Shown: positions 1-35,310 of the stretch, piece by piece
Position numbering within the stretch: the first letter of the stretch is position 1
Layout: every line of letters begins with the position of its first letter
Assembly (NCBI GenBank): GCA_003221035.1
Contig: QHUB01000036.1
Coordinates: 1-37,614, forward strand
Length of the DNA stretch: 37,614 nucleotides
Source: Gemmatimonadota bacterium
GTDB lineage: Bacteria > Gemmatimonadota > Gemmatimonadetes > Gemmatimonadales > GWC2-71-9
Reading direction: 5' to 3'
Program-made: the position numbers and the translations under genes
Notes under the pieces: model-generated
Databases searched by the model: none
What the model saw: only the letters and a program-made list of their open reading frames with translations
Told to the model about the DNA's origin: nothing

Positions 1-193
1 CGAGCGCGCGCATGACCTGCTCGACGCGGAACGGCCGGTTGAGCGGCGAGGGGTCGGCGATGCGGCCGCTGGCGATCAGATGCTCGATGTAGGGCATGCT
101 CCAATGCGAGATGGGCAAGTAGGGGCTGGCTTCTTGCGCGAGCAGCGGTGCGCCGCTGAGGGCCAGGATGAAGGGGAGAGCGACGCTGCGCAT
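1..193 (-). CDS. Exported protein, N-terminal fragment (possibly Wzi-like outer-membrane protein)
   Basis: This is a leftward gene cut by the window edge; 64 codons are visible from an ATG at 191-193 and the frame stays open to base 2. The first 20 residues form a short signal peptide: an Arg near the N-terminus, a hydrophobic stretch (VALPFILALSG) and a likely cleavage site after LLAQ or LLA. The mature part starts ASPYLPISHWSMPYIEHLI and continues with a Gly-Arg-Ile-Ala-Asp motif, resembling the N-terminal segment of large outer-membrane or capsule-assembly (Wzi-type) proteins; this resemblance is from memory. It is divergent from the asparaginase gene, and the 156-bp gap between them is mostly filled by a palindromic repeat. 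The function is uncertain; the call as an exported protein is firmer than the family. Confidence 0.5.
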   Translation of the reverse strand, partial: MRSVALPFILALSGAPLLAQEASPYLPISHWSMPYIEHLIASGRIADPSPLNRPFRVEQVMRAL

Positions 194-212
194 GGCGGGG
201 ATGATACAACTG

Positions 213-323
213 CAATGCGAAATGCGAAATGCGAAATGCGGAATGCGGAATTTCCGTGAAAGATCGTGCCGCGCACGACGCTCCCCGTTACATTCCGCAT
301 TCCGAATTCCGCATTTCGCATTG
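213..323. mobile_element. Heptamer-palindrome element copy 1 (short, no ORF)
   Basis: The left arm (213-251) is a run of ATGCGAA and ATGCGGA heptamers; the right arm (291-323) is its imperfect inverse and ends in CATTTCGCATTG. The 39-nt centre keeps TCGTGCCGC (264-272) and CTCCCCGTT (281-289). Both 9-mers also occur at the same distance from the arms in the copy at 2038-2467 that carries an S23-family gene. This copy therefore looks like an internal deletion of that element. It sits in the divergent spacer between the exported-protein gene and the asparaginase gene. Confidence 0.8.
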
Positions 324-349
324 AGCTCGCCGGCCGAAAGGAGCAACGG

Positions 350-1360
350 TTGTTCGTCGAGTCCTACCGGGGAAGCGTGCTCGAGTCCCGCCACCGAGTC
401 CATGTTGCCGTGGTGGATGCCGGTGGGAAGCTCGTGGCACAGGCGGGCGAACCCGACTACCGCACCTTCTGGCGCTCCGCCGCCAAGCCCTTTCAGGCAG
501 CGCCCCTCGTCGGGGACGGTGTCGTCGAGCGGTTCGGGCTCACGCGGCAAGACCTGGCGCTCGCGTGCGCGTCGCATTCGAGCGAGCCGGCGCAGGTCGC
601 ACTCGTGCGCGAATTCCTGCAGCGCATCGGCTGCTCGGAGCGCGATCTCTTGTGCGGGCCGCATCGCCCGCTCTCGGACGCGGTCGCCAGGGACTATGAG
701 ACCCGCGGCATGCGGCTGACGGCGCTGTACTCCAACTGCTCGGGCAAGCACACCGGGATGCTGGCGCTCGCGAAACATCACGGCTGGCCGACCGAGTTCT
801 ACACGCGTCTCGAGCATCCCGTGCAGCAGCGCTGTCTCGAGTCGGTGAGCGCCTGGACGGATCTTTCGAAGGACCAGATCGGTGTCGCCGTCGATGGCTG
901 CGGGGTGGCGACGTTTGCGCTGCCGCTCAGAAATATGGCGTTGGCGTGGGCGAGATTGGGGAATTCGAAAGTCGAAATGCGAAGTGCGAAATCTGAACCA
1001 ACCGATCAATTACGCATTTCACATTCGGCATTTCGCATTGTTGAGGCCATGCTGCACCACCCCGAGCTCGTCGCCGGTGCGGGCCGGCCGTGCACGGAGA
1101 TGATGCGCGCGCATCCGGGGCGCGTGGTCGCGAAGGTCGGCGCGGAAGGGGTATACAGCGCGCTGCTCGTGCGCGAAGGCCTCGGCGTCGCGCTCAAGGT
1201 CGAGGACGGCCACAGTGTCGCATCGGCCATCGCGATCGCCGCGGTGCTGCAAGAGCTCGGATTGAAGCCGCAGCCGGCCTCGCTCTTGAAGAAGCCAATC
1301 ACGAATTCGCGGGGCGAGACCGTGGGGGAGATGCGGGTTTTTGGGGGGCTAACGAAATGA
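350..1360 (+). CDS. L-asparaginase II family protein
   Basis: This 336-residue protein matches the Asparaginase_II family, which is unrelated in fold to E. coli AnsA/AnsB and is expected to hydrolyse L-asparagine to aspartate and ammonia in the cytoplasm. Family signatures visible are the early SYRGSVLESRHRV segment, FWRSAAKPFQA, CASHSSEP, YSNCSGKHTGMLA and the VDGCGVATFALPL block. The TTG at 350 was chosen because a strong Shine-Dalgarno sequence, AAAGGAG at 337-343, lies 6 nt upstream; the frame is open further upstream only through the repeat element. Residues about 205-230 are encoded by a second repeat copy (964-1040) inserted in frame just before the AMLHHPELVAGAGRP block. Whether the enzyme tolerates this insert cannot be judged from sequence alone. 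Confidence 0.88.
   Translation: MFVESYRGSVLESRHRVHVAVVDAGGKLVAQAGEPDYRTFWRSAAKPFQAAPLVGDGVVERFGLTRQDLALACASHSSEPAQVALVREFLQRIGCSERDLLCGPHRPLSDAVARDYETRGMRLTALYSNCSGKHTGMLALAKHHGWPTEFYTRLEHPVQQRCLESVSAWTDLSKDQIGVAVDGCGVATFALPLRNMALAWARLGNSKVEMRSAKSEPTDQLRISHSAFRIVEAMLHHPELVAGAGRPCTEMMRAHPGRVVAKVGAEGVYSALLVREGLGVALKVEDGHSVASAIAIAAVLQELGLKPQPASLLKKPITNSRGETVGEMRVFGGLTK
964..1040. mobile_element. Heptamer-palindrome element copy 2, in frame inside the asparaginase gene
   Basis: The left arm (964-992) contains CGAAAGTCGAAATGCGAA, identical over 18 nt to the left arm of the S23-gene element (2039-2056). The right arm (1010-1040) ends in CATTTCGCATTG and is followed by TTGAGG. The insert keeps the asparaginase frame open and adds about 26 residues, including a SHSAFRI peptide typical of translated right arms of this family. 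Confidence 0.8.
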
Positions 1361-1364
1361 AACG

Positions 1365-1386
1365 ATTGCGGAATGCGGAATGCGGA
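1365..1386. repeat. Solo heptamer arm upstream of the decarboxylase-family gene
   Basis: Three ATGCGGA-type heptamers in direct orientation resemble a left arm alone, with no matching right arm nearby. The run lies 4 nt after the asparaginase stop codon and contains an ATG (1380) that could act as an alternative start for the next gene. Confidence 0.7.
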
Positions 1387-1394
1387 GTGTTAAG

Positions 1395-2036
1395 GTGAGC
1401 GTCGAGCAGCCCTCTGGCCTCGATCCGCAGACGCTCGCGCTGGTGCGACTTGCCGGGGCAACCGCGACGGGCGACGAAACGAAGCTGCGCGATCGGATGG
1501 TCGCGGCGCGCGCGGTGCATGTGCCGCCGCAGTGGGTGGACGAGCTGCTACTGCAGAGCTTCCTCAACGTGGGCTATCCGCTCGCGCTGGTCGCGTTCGG
1601 CGTGTGGCGCAGCGTCGCGGGGCCGGTGCTGGAGAGTGAGAAGGGCGAGCCGATCGCGCATCCCGAGTGGGAGCGCTGGACCAAGCGGGGCGTGGCGGCG
1701 TGCGGCGAGGTATACGGCCGGACGTATCACAAGCTCATGCTGAACTTGCGCGCGCTGCATCCGGCGATCGAGCCGCTCGTGGTGGTCGATGCCTACGGCA
1801 AGATCCTCGCTCGACCGGGTTTGGATTCGAAGCGCCGGGAGCTTTGCACGCTGGCGGCGATTGCGATGCAGAACGCTCCGCGCCAGTTGCATGCGCACCT
1901 TCGCGGCGCCTTAAACACCGGGTCCAGCCGCGAGGACGTGGATGCGGTCCTTGCAGTTGTAGAACTGGATCTCACCAAAGAACGTGCGCTCAAGCTCTGG
2001 GAAATGTGGAGCGATGTGCGCTCACGAAACCTGTAA
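1395..2036 (+). CDS. Carboxymuconolactone decarboxylase family protein (AhpD-like fold)
   Basis: This protein of about 213 residues resembles the carboxymuconolactone decarboxylase/AhpD-like superfamily. The C-terminal half has the helical core pattern: a RRELCTLAAIAMQNAPRQL helix, then LHAHLRGALNTGSSREDV, then a VLAVVEL helix. The AhpD-type CxxC pair is absent; only one Cys sits at the RRELCTLA position, so thiol peroxidase-reductase activity is unlikely. The substrate is unknown. The GTG at 1395 is preferred because GGAG at 1384-1387 lies 7 nt upstream. The ATG at 1380, inside the solo repeat arm, would add five residues. It follows the asparaginase gene closely and is probably cotranscribed with it. 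Confidence 0.75.
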   Translation: MSVEQPSGLDPQTLALVRLAGATATGDETKLRDRMVAARAVHVPPQWVDELLLQSFLNVGYPLALVAFGVWRSVAGPVLESEKGEPIAHPEWERWTKRGVAACGEVYGRTYHKLMLNLRALHPAIEPLVVVDAYGKILARPGLDSKRRELCTLAAIAMQNAPRQLHAHLRGALNTGSSREDVDAVLAVVELDLTKERALKLWEMWSDVRSRNL

Positions 2037-2037
2037 T

Positions 2038-2467
2038 CCGAAAGTCGAAATGCGAAATGCGGAATCTCGAGGTGGGGTCGTGCCGCAATTCAACCTGAAG
2101 GAGCGCACGAAGGCCTTCGCATTGGCCGTGGTGGCTTTAGTAGAGGAGCTTCCACGTGGACGCAGCGCGGATTCGATCGGGAATCAGCTTCTTCGCTCGG
2201 GAACCTCAGTCGGTGCAAACTACCGTGCGGCGTGCCACGCGCGATCCAGGCGCGAGTTCGTAGCCAAGCTCGGTATCGTCGAAGAGGAAGCAGATGAGTC
2301 GCAGTTCTGGATGGACCTGATAATTGCTCGCGGCTGGGCGGATATCGACCGGGTTACAAAGTTGAGCGATGAAGCACGCCAGCTCGTCGCCATCGTCGTC
2401 ACGTCGATCAGAACGGCTCGCAGAACTCCCCGTTCAATTCCGCATTCCACATTCCGCATTTCGCATT
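2038..2467 (+). mobile_element. Heptamer-palindrome element copy 4, full form carrying an S23-family gene
   Basis: The left arm (2038-2065) carries CGAAAGTCGAAATGCGAA and an ATGCGGA heptamer; the right arm (2435-2467) is its inverse and ends in CATTTCGCATT. The whole S23-family ORF lies between the arms, and its last codons are the right arm itself. The arms match those of the ORF-less copies at 213-323, 964-1040 and 35232-35310, so this is the only copy in the window with coding capacity. No transposase is visible. The element starts 2 nt after one stop codon and ends at the obgE start codon. Confidence 0.72.
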
Positions 2468-2469
2468 AG
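2080..2469 (+). CDS. Four-helix-bundle protein, S23/23S rRNA intervening-sequence family
   Basis: This 129-residue protein belongs to the four-helix-bundle family first described from ORFs within 23S rRNA intervening sequences; Avd of diversity-generating retroelements shares the fold. Visible signatures are FNLKERTKAFALAVVALVEE, LLRSGTSVGANYRAACHARS, EFVAKLGIVEEEADESQFW and a final helix (LVAIVVTSIRTARR). The GTG at 2080 is chosen because GAGGTG at 2069-2074 lies 5 nt upstream and homologous sequence begins right after it. The last about 15 residues, including FRISH, are encoded by the right repeat arm and are probably not part of the fold. There is no rRNA gene or reverse transcriptase in the window. 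The biochemical role of the family is unresolved; nucleic-acid binding is a reasonable inference. Confidence 0.85.
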   Translation: MPQFNLKERTKAFALAVVALVEELPRGRSADSIGNQLLRSGTSVGANYRAACHARSRREFVAKLGIVEEEADESQFWMDLIIARGWADIDRVTKLSDEARQLVAIVVTSIRTARRTPRSIPHSTFRISH

Positions 2470-4535
<2,066 letters not shown>

Positions 4536-4538
4536 CGG

Positions 4539-4572
4539 CAATGCGAAACGCGGAATGCGAAATGCGGAATTT
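4539..4572. repeat. Solo heptamer arm between dprA and hemW
   Basis: The run begins CAATGCGAAACGCGG and continues with ATGCGAA and ATGCGGA units, then AATTTC as at the inner end of the left arm of copy 1. It starts 4 nt after the dprA stop. An inverted arm lies 258 bp away inside hemW (4831-4865). Confidence 0.7.
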
Positions 4573-4603
4573 CACTGCAGGCCCTATGCGCTAAATTGCA
4601 TCC

Positions 4604-5707
4604 GTGCATCTCTACATCCATGTCCCGTTTTGCCAGCGGCGCTGTTCCTACTGCGACTTCTCGATTGCCGTCCGGAAGCGAATTCCGACAGGCACGTACG
4701 TCCAGACAATACTGACCGAAGCTGCTCGGATTCCGGCTTCGTATCTTGAGACGATCTATCTCGGTGGCGGAACGCCGTCGTTACTTCCCCCGGACGCGAT
4801 CCGCACGTTGCTGCGCGAACTCACCCAGAGATTCCGCATTCCGCATTCCGCATTGCCCATTGAGGTGACCCTCGAGGCCAACCCCGAAGATGTGAGCCTG
4901 GAGTCGGCCCGTGCCTGGCGCGCCGCCGGCATCAACCGCGTGAGCCTCGGCGCCCAATCGTTCGACGACGCGGTCCTGCAATGGATGCATCGCTCCCACG
5001 ACGCCGCGCAGACCAAACGCGCGGTCCAGGCGTTGCGCGACGCCGGCATCGAAAACATTTCGCTGGACTTGATCTTCGGATTGCCCGAGGAGCTCAAGCG
5101 GGACTGGGAACGGGACCTCGACATCCTCGCCTCCCTGCTTCCGGCTCACTGCTCCTTGTACGGCCTGACCGTGGAACCGCGGACGCCGCTCGACCGTTGG
5201 ATTTCGCGCGGCGCGACCCATGCGCCCGAGGACGAGCGGTATGCCGAAGAGTATCTGGCGGCGCACCGCCGGCTGACGGCGGCGGGCTTTGAGTTCTACG
5301 AGGTCTCGAACGCCGCCCGCGACGGCTATCGCTCTCGCCACAACTCGGCGTACTGGTCGGGCAAGCCGTATGTGGGGCTCGGCCCCGCGGCGCACTCGTT
5401 TGACGGCACGACGCGCCGCTGGAACCTCCGAGCCTGGGAAGCCTATCGGCGTGCCATCGCAGAGGGGCGCTCGGCGGTCGAGTCAGAGGAGACGCTGACG
5501 GACGAGCAGCGGGAATTGGAGGCAGTATACCTGGGACTTAGAACAGCGGAGGGTTTTGACTTTGCCGCCCTTCGCCGCCCCTCGCCGCCGCCTCACCTCG
5601 CCGCCCAGGGCTGGGTATACGAGAACGAAGGACGGCTCAGATGCACACCAGAGGGCTGGTTACGATTAGATTCGATCGTGAATGAGTATGACAGCGCCAC
5701 TCACTGA
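4604..5707 (+). CDS. hemW: HemW-type radical SAM protein (heme chaperone, coproporphyrinogen-dehydrogenase-like)
   Basis: This 367-residue radical SAM protein carries the HemW signature. The cluster motif CQRRCSYCDF (CxxxCxxC) begins at residue 9, followed by the SAM-binding GGGTPSLL block, NRVSLGAQSFDD, and the HemW segment HNSAYWSGKPYVGLGPAAHS. HemW binds and transfers heme to membrane respiratory enzymes and is often mislabelled HemN. The start is a GTG at 4604; no clear Shine-Dalgarno sequence is visible. Two repeats are embedded in frame: a heptamer right arm (4831-4865, peptide FRIPHSALPI before VTLEANPEDV) and a decamer run (5561-5606, Pro-rich). The gene overlaps hrcA by 26 nt. Confidence 0.92.
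   Translation: MHLYIHVPFCQRRCSYCDFSIAVRKRIPTGTYVQTILTEAARIPASYLETIYLGGGTPSLLPPDAIRTLLRELTQRFRIPHSALPIEVTLEANPEDVSLESARAWRAAGINRVSLGAQSFDDAVLQWMHRSHDAAQTKRAVQALRDAGIENISLDLIFGLPEELKRDWERDLDILASLLPAHCSLYGLTVEPRTPLDRWISRGATHAPEDERYAEEYLAAHRRLTAAGFEFYEVSNAARDGYRSRHNSAYWSGKPYVGLGPAAHSFDGTTRRWNLRAWEAYRRAIAEGRSAVESEETLTDEQRELEAVYLGLRTAEGFDFAALRRPSPPPHLAAQGWVYENEGRLRCTPEGWLRLDSIVNEYDSATH
4831..4865. repeat. Heptamer right arm in frame inside hemW
   Basis: Tandem CATTCCG-type heptamers end in CATTGAGG, the same terminus as the other right arms. The stretch lies between two conserved HemW blocks and keeps the frame. Confidence 0.7.
5561..5606. repeat. TTCGCCGCCC-type decamer repeats in hemW
   Basis: Three contiguous decamers (TTTGCCGCCC, TTCGCCGCCC, CTCGCCGCCG) and a fourth after a 6-nt gap encode a Pro/Arg-rich segment in the C-terminal part of HemW. 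The frame is retained. Confidence 0.6.
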
Positions 5708-8979: not shown

Positions 8980-11175
8980 ATGGGTGCGGCACGCATCACC
9001 GCGCGACTCCCCGACACCGATGCCGCGTCCATCCGCGACGCGCTGGCGCAGGTCGCCGAGCTCGCCGCGCTGCTGATCACCGACGAGACCATCCAGGCAG
9101 AGCCGGTGCCGGACATCGCGCAGTCGCTCGAGTTGCTCGATGTGACGGGTAGCGTGCTCGAAGCGTTACAGCTTGCCGAGCTGGCGGTCGCGCTCGCGGC
9201 AATGCGCGTCGTCGCGTCCGATCTCAAGCGGCTCGAAACGACGCACGACGCACGACGCACGGCTGCGCTTCGCGTCGATCCCCCACCACGCGACCTGGAA
9301 GCCGCGCTCGTTCGTTCGATCTCCCCGGCGGGCGAGGTTCTCGACAGCTCATCGAAGGATCTCGCGCGCGCGCGGGCGCACGTGCGCGAGGCGCGCAAGC
9401 ACGTGATGGACCGGCTCGGCGCCATTCTTGGATCGCTCGATCAGACCGAGCGCGCGCCCGATGCGGCGGTCACGATTCGCGGGGGCCGGTACGTCATTCC
9501 GGTTCGCAGCACGGCGCGCTCGCGCGTGGGCGGCATCGTGCACGACGAATCGGCTACGCGCAGCACCGTATTTGTCGAACCGCCCGAGATCATCGAGCTC
9601 GGCAACGAGCTGCGTGCGGCCGAGGCCGCCGAAGCGCGTGAAGTGTTACGGGTGCTGCGTGAGCTGACGGATCTGGTGCGACCGCAGGCGGCGACGATCG
9701 CGGCCGGCTGGGAGATGTGCATCGCGTTCGATGACCTGTGTGCGCGCGCGCGGTACGCCGTTGAAGTCAATGGATTCGTGCCGGAAATCGGCGGAGTGTT
9801 AAAAATACGCGGTGGCCGTCATCCGCTTTTGGTGACCGCCGTGCCGCTGCCGTCACGCGACATATCCACCCACGACATATCCATACGTATGGATATGTCG
9901 GCTGCCCGGCCTGTGGTGCCGTTCGACCTCGAGCTGCACGCCGACGAATTCACCGTCCTCATCTCGGGTCCTAACACGGGTGGCAAGACGGTGTTGATCA
10001 AAGCCGTCGGTCTGCTGGCTCTTTTAACGCAGAGTGGGATCATTCCGCCGATCGGGCCGCATTCCTCGCTGCCCGTGTTTACCCGCGTGTTTGCCGACAT
10101 CGGCGACCGCCAATCGATCGCCGCGAGCCTCTCGACCTTCTCGGCGCACGTCGCCGTGTTGCGGGAGATCCTGGACGGCGCCGGCGCGGGCTCGCTCGTG
10201 TTGCTCGACGAAATCGGGAGCGGCACCGATCCCGCTGAGGGTGGTGCACTCGCGTCCGCGACGCTCAAGACGCTCACGCGCCGCCGCGTCATCACGATGG
10301 CCACGACGCACCTCGGCGCCTTGAAGCAGCTCGCGGCCGAGACGGTGGGCATCGTGAACGCGTCGCTGCAGTTCGACGCCGAGACGCTGACGCCGACCTA
10401 CCGGCTGCTCAAGGGCGTGCCGGGACGCTCGTATGGTCTTGCGATCGCGCGCCGGCTGGGCATCGCCGGCGACGTGCTCGCCGAAGCCGAGCGCGCCGTC
10501 CCCGATGCAGAGCGCACGCTCGACAAGCTGCTCGCCTCGGTCGAAGCGCGCCGCCGCGAGCTGGATGCGCGCGCCGCCGAGCTCGAAACGAGAGCAGCCC
10601 AACTCGACCTCGAACGTCAGAACCTGCAGAACCTCGAGAACCTCCAGGACGAGTTGCACGCGAGAGAAAAGTCCCTCGACAAGAACGCCCGCGAGCAGGC
10701 CAGGGCATACCTGCTGGAAGCCCGTAAGACGGTCGAAGCGGCATTGGCTCAGGCGCGCGCGGCGGTGACGGAGGCGACGGCGAGAGAAGCGCGGCGGATC
10801 GTGGAAGAGGCGATCGAAAAGACAGGAGCCGGGAGCCGGGAGCAGGGAGCCGGGTGGGTGAATCTGGAGGAGCTCAGGCGGCGCAGGAACGTGCCCGCGA
10901 CGGCCCAGGTAAGCGACGCCCCAACCACCGTTGCGGCCAGTGAGGTTTCGCTCCGCGGCCTGACGATAGAGGAAGCCGAGCCCTTGCTCGCGCGGGCCAT
11001 CGATGACGCGGTCCTCGCCGATCTGCCCTATCTCCGCATCATTCACGGGAAGGGGACCGGAGTGCTGCGGGATTTTGTGCAAGGCGTCGTGAAGCGCGAC
11101 AAACGGATCAAGAGCTACGGATTGGCGCCCGCGAATCAAGGCGGCAGCGGCGTGACCGTCGTGGAGTTCAAATGA
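8980..11175 (+). CDS. mutS2: Endonuclease MutS2
   Basis: MutS2 is a MutS paralogue that resolves collided ribosomes and/or limits recombination. The ATPase has Walker A GPNTGGKTVLIK, the LLDEIGSGTDPAEGGAL Walker B/signature segment and TMATTHLGALK. A long coiled coil (about residues 490-610) precedes the C-terminal Smr nuclease domain (LRGLTIEEAEPLLARAIDDA, RIIHGKGTGVLRD). The ATG at 8980 is the first canonical start, but family-like sequence (DQVLATLEFPQALARVAAHA) continues in frame upstream to 8899-8911, where only ATT (8899) or ATC (8908) could start after GAGGAA (8894-8899). Three in-frame inserts are present: heptamers (9241-9261), a palindrome (9859-9900) and GGGAGCC repeats (10824-10854). 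It overlaps dnaG by 4 nt. Confidence 0.93.
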   Translation: MGAARITARLPDTDAASIRDALAQVAELAALLITDETIQAEPVPDIAQSLELLDVTGSVLEALQLAELAVALAAMRVVASDLKRLETTHDARRTAALRVDPPPRDLEAALVRSISPAGEVLDSSSKDLARARAHVREARKHVMDRLGAILGSLDQTERAPDAAVTIRGGRYVIPVRSTARSRVGGIVHDESATRSTVFVEPPEIIELGNELRAAEAAEAREVLRVLRELTDLVRPQAATIAAGWEMCIAFDDLCARARYAVEVNGFVPEIGGVLKIRGGRHPLLVTAVPLPSRDISTHDISIRMDMSAARPVVPFDLELHADEFTVLISGPNTGGKTVLIKAVGLLALLTQSGIIPPIGPHSSLPVFTRVFADIGDRQSIAASLSTFSAHVAVLREILDGAGAGSLVLLDEIGSGTDPAEGGALASATLKTLTRRRVITMATTHLGALKQLAAETVGIVNASLQFDAETLTPTYRLLKGVPGRSYGLAIARRLGIAGDVLAEAERAVPDAERTLDKLLASVEARRRELDARAAELETRAAQLDLERQNLQNLENLQDELHAREKSLDKNAREQARAYLLEARKTVEAALAQARAAVTEATAREARRIVEEAIEKTGAGSREQGAGWVNLEELRRRRNVPATAQVSDAPTTVAASEVSLRGLTIEEAEPLLARAIDDAVLADLPYLRIIHGKGTGVLRDFVQGVVKRDKRIKSYGLAPANQGGSGVTVVEFK
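9241..9261. repeat. Three ACGCACG heptamers in mutS2
   Basis: Three perfect 7-nt units encode a HDARRT peptide between two helices of the MutS2 core. The unit is identical to the one in obgE (3318-3345). Confidence 0.75.
9859..9900. repeat. Perfect 28-bp palindrome plus partial copy inside mutS2
   Basis: Positions 9873-9900 are a perfect palindrome whose half is CGACATATCCATAC. A partial copy of that half (CGACATATCC) precedes it at 9858-9867. The encoded peptide DISTHDISIRMDMS splits MutS2 between VTAVPLPS and VVPFDLELH. The core matches the palindrome upstream of the first arsR (20315-20340) at 24 of 26 positions. Confidence 0.85.
10824..10854. repeat. GGGAGCC heptamers in mutS2
   Basis: Four GGGAGCC-type units encode TGAGSREQGAG between the coiled coil and the linker to the Smr domain. 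Related units occur at the end of pheS and in xseA. Confidence 0.7.
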
Positions 11176-34377: not shown

Positions 34378-35233
34378 CTATCTCGCCGATGCCCGCTCCC
34401 GGGTCGACACCGTATTGGCGTCCGCCACCATCGGGGACGAAGTCGTTCGCTACAGCCTGTTGGGGGAGGGCAAGCGGCTCAGGCCCACGCTGGTGTTTGC
34501 CGCGCACGAAGCGCTCAACGGATCGTCATCGGCGGGTGTCGCCGAGCTAGCCGCCGCCGTCGAGGTCGTGCATGCGTATTCGCTGGTGCACGACGATCTC
34601 CCATGCATGGACAACGACGACCTGCGGCGGGGCCGGCCGACGGCGCATCGCGCGTTCGACGTGCCGCGCGCCACCCGCGCGGGCTACGACATGGTGGCGC
34701 TCGCGGCGCGCGTCCTCGCGCGCGGGCTCGCGGCGCTCGAGCTTTCCACCGAACGGCGGCGCGAGATCGCGCTCGAGCTGTTCCGCGCCGCCGGCGCGGG
34801 CGGCATGATCGGCGGGCAGACGCTCGACCTCGAGGCGGAAGCGAAGGCACTCCCGGTCGAAGCGCTCGCCGAGGTGCATCGGCGCAAGACCGGCGCGCTG
34901 ATTGCCGCGTCGTGCGTCATCGGCGGCCTCGCGGCCAACGGCACGCGCGGGCATGTCGAGGCGCTGCGCGCGTACGGCGAGGCGATCGGACTCGCGTTTC
35001 AGATCGCGGACGACGTGCTCGACGCCACCGCGACATCCGACCAGCTCGGCAAGACGGCGGGAAAGGACGCGGCGCACGCCAAAGCCACGTTCGTGACGCT
35101 GCTGGGCGTGGGCGCCGCACGCGCCGAGGCGGAACGGCTGGCTGCGAAGGCGGTAGACCAGTTGCGCCAGGCGGGGTTAGTTTCCCCGATACTCGTGGAG
35201 CTGGCGCATTATATCGTGACGAGGCCTAATTAA
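34361..35233 (+). CDS. ispA: Polyprenyl (farnesyl/geranyl) diphosphate synthase
   Basis: This 290-residue trans-prenyltransferase condenses IPP with allylic diphosphates. The first Asp-rich motif is VHDDLPCMDNDDLRRGRPT and the second is FQIADDVLDATATSDQLGK; KRLRPTLVFAAHEAL binds diphosphate. The residues before the first Asp-rich motif (HAYSLVHDD) suggest a C15 (farnesyl) product, but length cannot be fixed from sequence. The TTG at 34361 lies within xseB. The stop codon runs directly into a heptamer-palindrome element before dxs. Confidence 0.93.
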   Translation: MKALVSYLADARSRVDTVLASATIGDEVVRYSLLGEGKRLRPTLVFAAHEALNGSSSAGVAELAAAVEVVHAYSLVHDDLPCMDNDDLRRGRPTAHRAFDVPRATRAGYDMVALAARVLARGLAALELSTERRREIALELFRAAGAGGMIGGQTLDLEAEAKALPVEALAEVHRRKTGALIAASCVIGGLAANGTRGHVEALRAYGEAIGLAFQIADDVLDATATSDQLGKTAGKDAAHAKATFVTLLGVGAARAEAERLAAKAVDQLRQAGLVSPILVELAHYIVTRPN

Positions 35234-35310
35234 TGCGAAATGCGAAAGTCGAAATGGGAAATCGAAACCTGCCTGTCAATTTCGCATTCCACATTTCGCA
35301 CTTCGAATTG
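35232..35310. mobile_element. Heptamer-palindrome element copy 7, between ispA and dxs
   Basis: The left arm (35232-35267) contains CGAAAGTCGAAATGGGAA, one mismatch from the arms of copies 2 and 4. The right arm (35277-35310) ends CACTTCGAATTG and is followed by AGGAA. The centre (ACCTGCCTGTCAATT) resembles the centre of copy 2. Its outer end contributes to the GAGGA ribosome-binding site of dxs. Confidence 0.8.

Follow-up and report, generated by a model that had tools for sequence, protein, structure and literature searches.

The REPIN/RAYT system consists of dispersed hairpins and a vertically inherited gene, and RAYTs have not been observed on plasmids (PMC8049555). In the intervening sequence (IVS) of Coxiella, an S23 open reading frame (ORF) is located between inverted repeats that form a 28-bp stem, and the IVS is excised by RNase III (PMC4990558). 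Heptameric repeats are known from many bacteria: GGGAATC repeats occur genome-wide in Xanthomonas, with 70 convergent pairs in X. campestris, and the heptameric repeat of Nostoc is GGGGA(C/T)T (PMC4692102). The accessible part of that report describes such repeats as over-represented in many bacterial genomes, leaves this unexplained, states that GGGAATC repeats are generally not associated with mobile elements, and names no associated protein (PMC4692102). A search of the open-access literature returned no account of a link between S23 and heptamers.

We analyzed a 37,614-nucleotide stretch of a Gemmatimonadota genome (the window), for which a sequence-only reading had proposed an S23-family gene enclosed by inverted heptamer arms. 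This was confirmed: the gene matches TIGR02436 over residues 7–113 (E = 1.8e-22; 79.6 bits against a curated cut-off of 24) and is flanked by arms on both sides (Table 1). Its TAG stop codon (2467–2469) falls at the end of the right arm, hence the C-terminal residues of S23 are encoded by the arm (window 2430–2469). The cassette occupies the entire intergenic gap, with the upstream pcaC-like gene terminating at 2036 and obg beginning at 2470. We agree with the earlier reading that the cassette contains no transposase. The cassette is located outside rRNA, between the pcaC-like gene and obg, and a known RNA family was rejected because window positions 1–5000 gave no Rfam match.

The locus resembles REPIN/RAYT in its short inverted hairpin pairs, its dispersed non-autonomous copies, and its vertically inherited chromosomal gene. 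It differs in that the gene encodes an S23 four-helix bundle instead of a Y1 transposase, and in that the arms are tandem heptamers whose unit differs between most S23 lineages. Similar to the S23-bearing 23S rRNA IVSs of Leptospira and Coxiella, the gene lies within stem-forming inverted repeats (PMC4990558), but here the site is not in rRNA, the arms are tandem heptamers, and there are families of ORF-less copies. With no linked Y1 gene and a site outside rRNA, the system falls outside both classes as they are defined.

Table 1. Positions of the S23 cassette, ORF-less hairpins and heptamer arrays in the window.
Feature	Coordinates	Strand	Remarks
Left arm, S23 cassette	2035..2065 (approximate)	+	Heptamer array GCGAAAT/GCGGAAT
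S23 / four-helix-bundle protein gene (TIGR02436)	2080..2469	+	GTG start; stop inside right arm
Right arm, inverted	2436..2467	+	ATTCCGC units
ORF-less hairpin	213..323	+	S23 leader 9-mer TCGTGCCGC at 264-272, tail 9-mer CTCCCCGTT at 281-289; fold z -7.3
Short-loop ORF-less hairpin, in frame within asparaginase-like gene	962..1040	+	Fold z -3.8
ORF-less hairpin copy	35232..35310	+	Fold z -2.8
Lone non-inverted heptamer half array, before pcaC-like gene	1366..1387	+	GCGGAAT-type array in seven genus genomes
Left-type array, after dprA-like gene	4540..4571	+	
Right-type array within gene following the dprA-like-gene array	4831..4855	+	Unit varies by species
Second-family array, inside obg ORF	3313..3350	+	Unit GTGCGTC, the arm unit of the L009 S23 gene
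Further GTGCGTC-family array	9238..9261	+	

The arms recur in ORF-less copies, as had been claimed, and three of these were verified in the window (213–323, 962–1040 and 35232–35310). The hairpin at 213–323 shares two exact 9-mers with the cassette, in register and at matching offsets; a 9-nt run on one side was obtained in ~4e-5 of shuffles of its loop, and runs on both sides in 0 of 200,000. It is best read as a putative deletion derivative of the S23 cassette. Loop length differs in most of the own-genome hairpins that we examined, and many have short loops without the cassette interior; the term deletion derivative is therefore justified for the longer-loop class alone. The earlier idea of internal deletion thus probably holds for 213–323 but does not extend to the many short-loop hairpins, and the combination of shared ends with an internal deletion that is expected of a MITE is clear only for 213–323. 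Its orthologues (G001, G005, G006) have a similar interior, GGTCGTG..ACATTCCGCA, and different arms; the hairpin is missing in G002. Hairpin 962–1040 is also present in G006, and a short array-free sequence takes its place in G002, G004, G005, G007 and G008. It is inserted in frame inside a protein gene, as are the palindromic elements of Rickettsia; we know of no protein family linked to the latter. At the obg-internal site, different array families were seen by species, with a GGTGTCT-type array in G002 and G006 and none in G004.

An armless S23 gene was sought in relatives at the pcaC-obg site, and none was found: across nine species there were six intact S23 orthologues and a truncated copy (G003), all with arms. 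The site in G006 has no S23. The arm unit is GCGRAAT in G000 (the window's genome) and G001, GCGGATT in G005, GCGGAAC in G004 and G007, and GTGYGGC in G002, G003 and G008, and both arms vary in concert between species. A dN/dS of ~0.04 between the window gene and that of G001 indicates strong purifying selection. The proposed relation of a parent transposon to its MITEs is only partly sustained: 213–323 is best taken as a deletion copy, but the gene copy has been inherited at its site through most of the genus. Because the window gene is inherited in place and the dispersed parts are mainly arm-only, REPIN/RAYT is the closer analogy.

We then compared the locus unit of each species with its arrays elsewhere. 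Among 17 cases at further orthologous sites, the array carried the S23 unit of its own species in 13, whereas 3.6 were expected (p = 0.0006). On other contigs or at sites far from the locus, the share of the locus unit among the four units counted averaged 57%, compared with an expectation of 26% (p = 0.004); both tests are small, with units assigned by eye, and the permutation statistics are not corrected for phylogeny. G002 is an exception, in that its nearby orthologous arrays carry GCGGATT instead of its S23 unit. Dispersed ORF-less hairpins tend to carry the same unit as the local S23 arms.

The host genome contains 11 S23 genes, nine or ten of which are flanked by inverted arrays of a short unit (the arms of L010 are weak). 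Examples of these units are GGTGTCT, GTGCGTC, GGGATGT and GGGACGGTAA. GCGRAAT arms were found at 1 of the 11 genes, the window's copy only, and a single arm sequence for all S23 genes was therefore rejected. Genome-wide, the window unit ATGCGRAATGCGRAAT gave 128 matches with at most one mismatch, compared to 0 for the reversed pattern. We also took a census of solo arrays in 437,614 bases (the window together with stretches sampled at 12%): it yielded 31 period-7 arrays (0 in a first-order Markov control), 18 of which match the arm unit of some host-genome S23 gene. A frequent array family of this genome, GGGAGCC (window 10825–10854; L263 13693–13715; L252 5410–5437; L257; L267), corresponds to no S23 arm unit used in the comparison, and is either an orphan family or one whose S23 gene was lost.

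To extend the comparison beyond this genome, we scored the inverted repeat between the two flanks of each S23 gene against off-target windows of the same loci, using a narrower S23 alignment for the collection scan since the first was too diverse. In the relatives and the own genome, 37 of 40 S23 genes exceeded the 99th percentile of 568 off-target windows. In a distant set from ~25 phyla, including one archaeon, 64 of 80 loci exceeded the 99th percentile of 2157 off-target windows and 72 of 80 the 95th; whole genomes behind 20 of these loci, a sample that overlaps the 80, had 25 of 27 S23 genes enclosed. The same holds for Lysobacterales, where 29 of 30 S23 genes lie between inverted arrays scoring above the 99th percentile of off-target windows. 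The best period was 7 in 61 of the 64 distant loci, and the units are short, mostly of 7 nt, and G-rich, with G exceeding C in 96 of 101 left arms. Arms were weak or absent at a few S23 genes (L010, L044, L064). The suggestion that arms plus S23 form a general unit was thus borne out in every set, from the own genome to Lysobacterales. As for shared arms, enclosure is general but no single arm sequence is, since the unit is in most cases particular to an S23 lineage. S23 proteins of higher identity to each other also have more similar arms (Mantel r = 0.33, p = 0.001).

Lysobacterales connect these arms to the published repeats. The S23 protein XCC0516 of X. campestris has a solved structure (2gsc), and its closest relative found (L211, 87% identity) sits between GGGAATC-type arms; other relatives have GGGATTC arms and further variants. 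The Xanthomonas GGGAATC repeats, as described in the accessible part of the source, share the unit and the convergent inverted layout of the arms of XCC0516-type S23 genes (PMC4692102). From 299 Lysobacterales genomes we compared 38 with a strong match to XCC0516-type S23 and 193 with no match. At least five GGGAWTC tandem hits were present in 34 of the 38 but in only 12 of the 193 (Fisher 4e-26, likewise uncorrected for phylogeny), with a median of 82 hits in genomes that have this S23 and mostly none in those that do not. Two of the four exceptions among the 38 (G296, G315) have variant arms. The 12 genomes that carry the repeat without a detected S23 suggest that upkeep without S23 is possible. 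No protein is named for the Xanthomonas and Nostoc heptamers in the accessible part of that report (PMC4692102). In both groups that we examined, the repeat around the S23 gene is also scattered through the genome, and S23 thus appears to be the partner that bacterial 7-letter repeats had been lacking.

The AlphaFold2 model of the window S23 (pLDDT 92.5) matches 2rld with TM-scores of 0.77/0.91 and also matches 2gsc, in keeping with the S23 fold; no catalytic domain was identified in S23. More weakly, the model matches Avd, the accessory protein of diversity-generating retroelements (4dwl, 8ub7), and S23 is thus predicted to share its fold; in contrast to those retroelements, the S23 cassette has no reverse transcriptase. 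S23 is rare on plasmids: with one query it was found on 25 of 72,556 plasmids and in 0 of 50,697 phages, and no relative of the window S23 protein was found on viral contigs.

We propose that an S23 gene and its flanking heptamer arrays probably constitute one heritable unit, with lineage-specific heptamers, a RAYT-like S23 and REPIN-like arm-only hairpins. The S23 gene would be RAYT-like in its fixed chromosomal site, its inheritance and its purifying selection; the arm-only hairpins, each composed of an array, a short loop and an inverted array, would be REPIN-like in being dispersed with the same unit. From co-occurrence and co-variation, we infer that S23 may act as an arm-specific factor. 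An Avd-like S23 would recognize the hairpin, either RNA or single-stranded DNA, that its own heptamer unit forms. It would promote both the copying of hairpins to sites elsewhere and the rewriting of arrays already in place, while a host enzyme would carry out cutting and polymerization. More tentatively, and with less confidence than we place in the heritable unit, S23 might represent a large class of repeat-specific factors in which each lineage recognizes its own heptamer hairpin and drives its copying, insertion and rewriting. These factors would have no transposase themselves and might be partnered by a reverse transcriptase or a repair polymerase, in the manner of Avd; such a class could be the origin of bacterial heptameric repeat families.

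The arms might instead control the S23 gene through RNA structure, acting as an RNase III target, a terminator or an autoregulatory site, much like the arms of 23S rRNA intervening sequences; dispersed copies would then have spread by an unrelated route. The strong stems, and arms that pair across the gene and vary in concert, fit this idea, as does the stem-forming Coxiella IVS with its excision by RNase III (PMC4990558). We nevertheless regard it as unlikely, since it leaves unexplained why ORF-less copies have the unit in common, why the unit tracks S23 lineage, and why arrays occur inside other genes. Replication slippage, a known source of short repeats, could account for the varying number of units, with S23 genes merely marking tolerant intergenic sites. 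However, slippage would not give inverted pairs with shared polarity, flanking specific to S23 or a unit common to dispersed sites; the inverted, lineage-specific arms already disfavor it, and we consider it barely credible.

Two further alternatives assign movement to a transposase. A Y1 (RAYT/IS200-type) enzyme acting in trans could move the hairpins with S23 as a passenger: REPINs are moved by such a transposase (PMC8049555), and Y1 genes were present in 35 of 38 genomes searched. Yet no Y1 match was found in three array-bearing genomes, G335 and G336 (91 and 142 GGGAWTC tandem hits) and G007, the host genome gave one weak match, and the arm unit tracks S23. Y1 is thereby disfavored as a consistent mover and this scenario is very unlikely; no consistent mover was found. 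The cassette could also be a conventional non-autonomous element that depended on a transposase encoded elsewhere or since lost, with a cellular role for the S23 protein. Sites without the cassette do exist: in Nostoc edaphicum a cassette lies between nrdB and nrdA, and Calothrix NIES-4105 lacks it, with flanks ~85% identical. That insert spans array to array; ~14 AT-rich bases are exchanged there, and no duplication is visible. Against a conventional element, no target-site duplication was seen at the hairpin or cassette sites compared, which have diverged, and there is no fixed terminal sequence; the unit differs between most lineages, a range that a single transposase is unlikely to accept. 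We judge this explanation highly improbable.

If S23 and the heptamers do belong to one heritable unit, then the repeats and S23, which is widespread without a known function, each gain a testable role. The link also offers a candidate ligand for the solved structure 2gsc, and extends the known repeat-dispersal systems by one with a linked gene other than a transposase.

In Anabaena sp. 90, cas6 and cas4 of a type I-D CRISPR-Cas operon are separated by an S23 cassette (L244 2971–3339), and the right arm of this cassette extends into the coding start of cas4. A near-identical Dolichospermum plasmid (L245, ~700–980) carries a different inverted-repeat element, GTAGGTTGGGTT..AACCCAACCTAC, at its cas6-cas4 site. 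Lastly, many S23 genes are situated near contig ends (L005, L042, L049, L050, L060, L061, L064), perhaps as a result of arms breaking assemblies.
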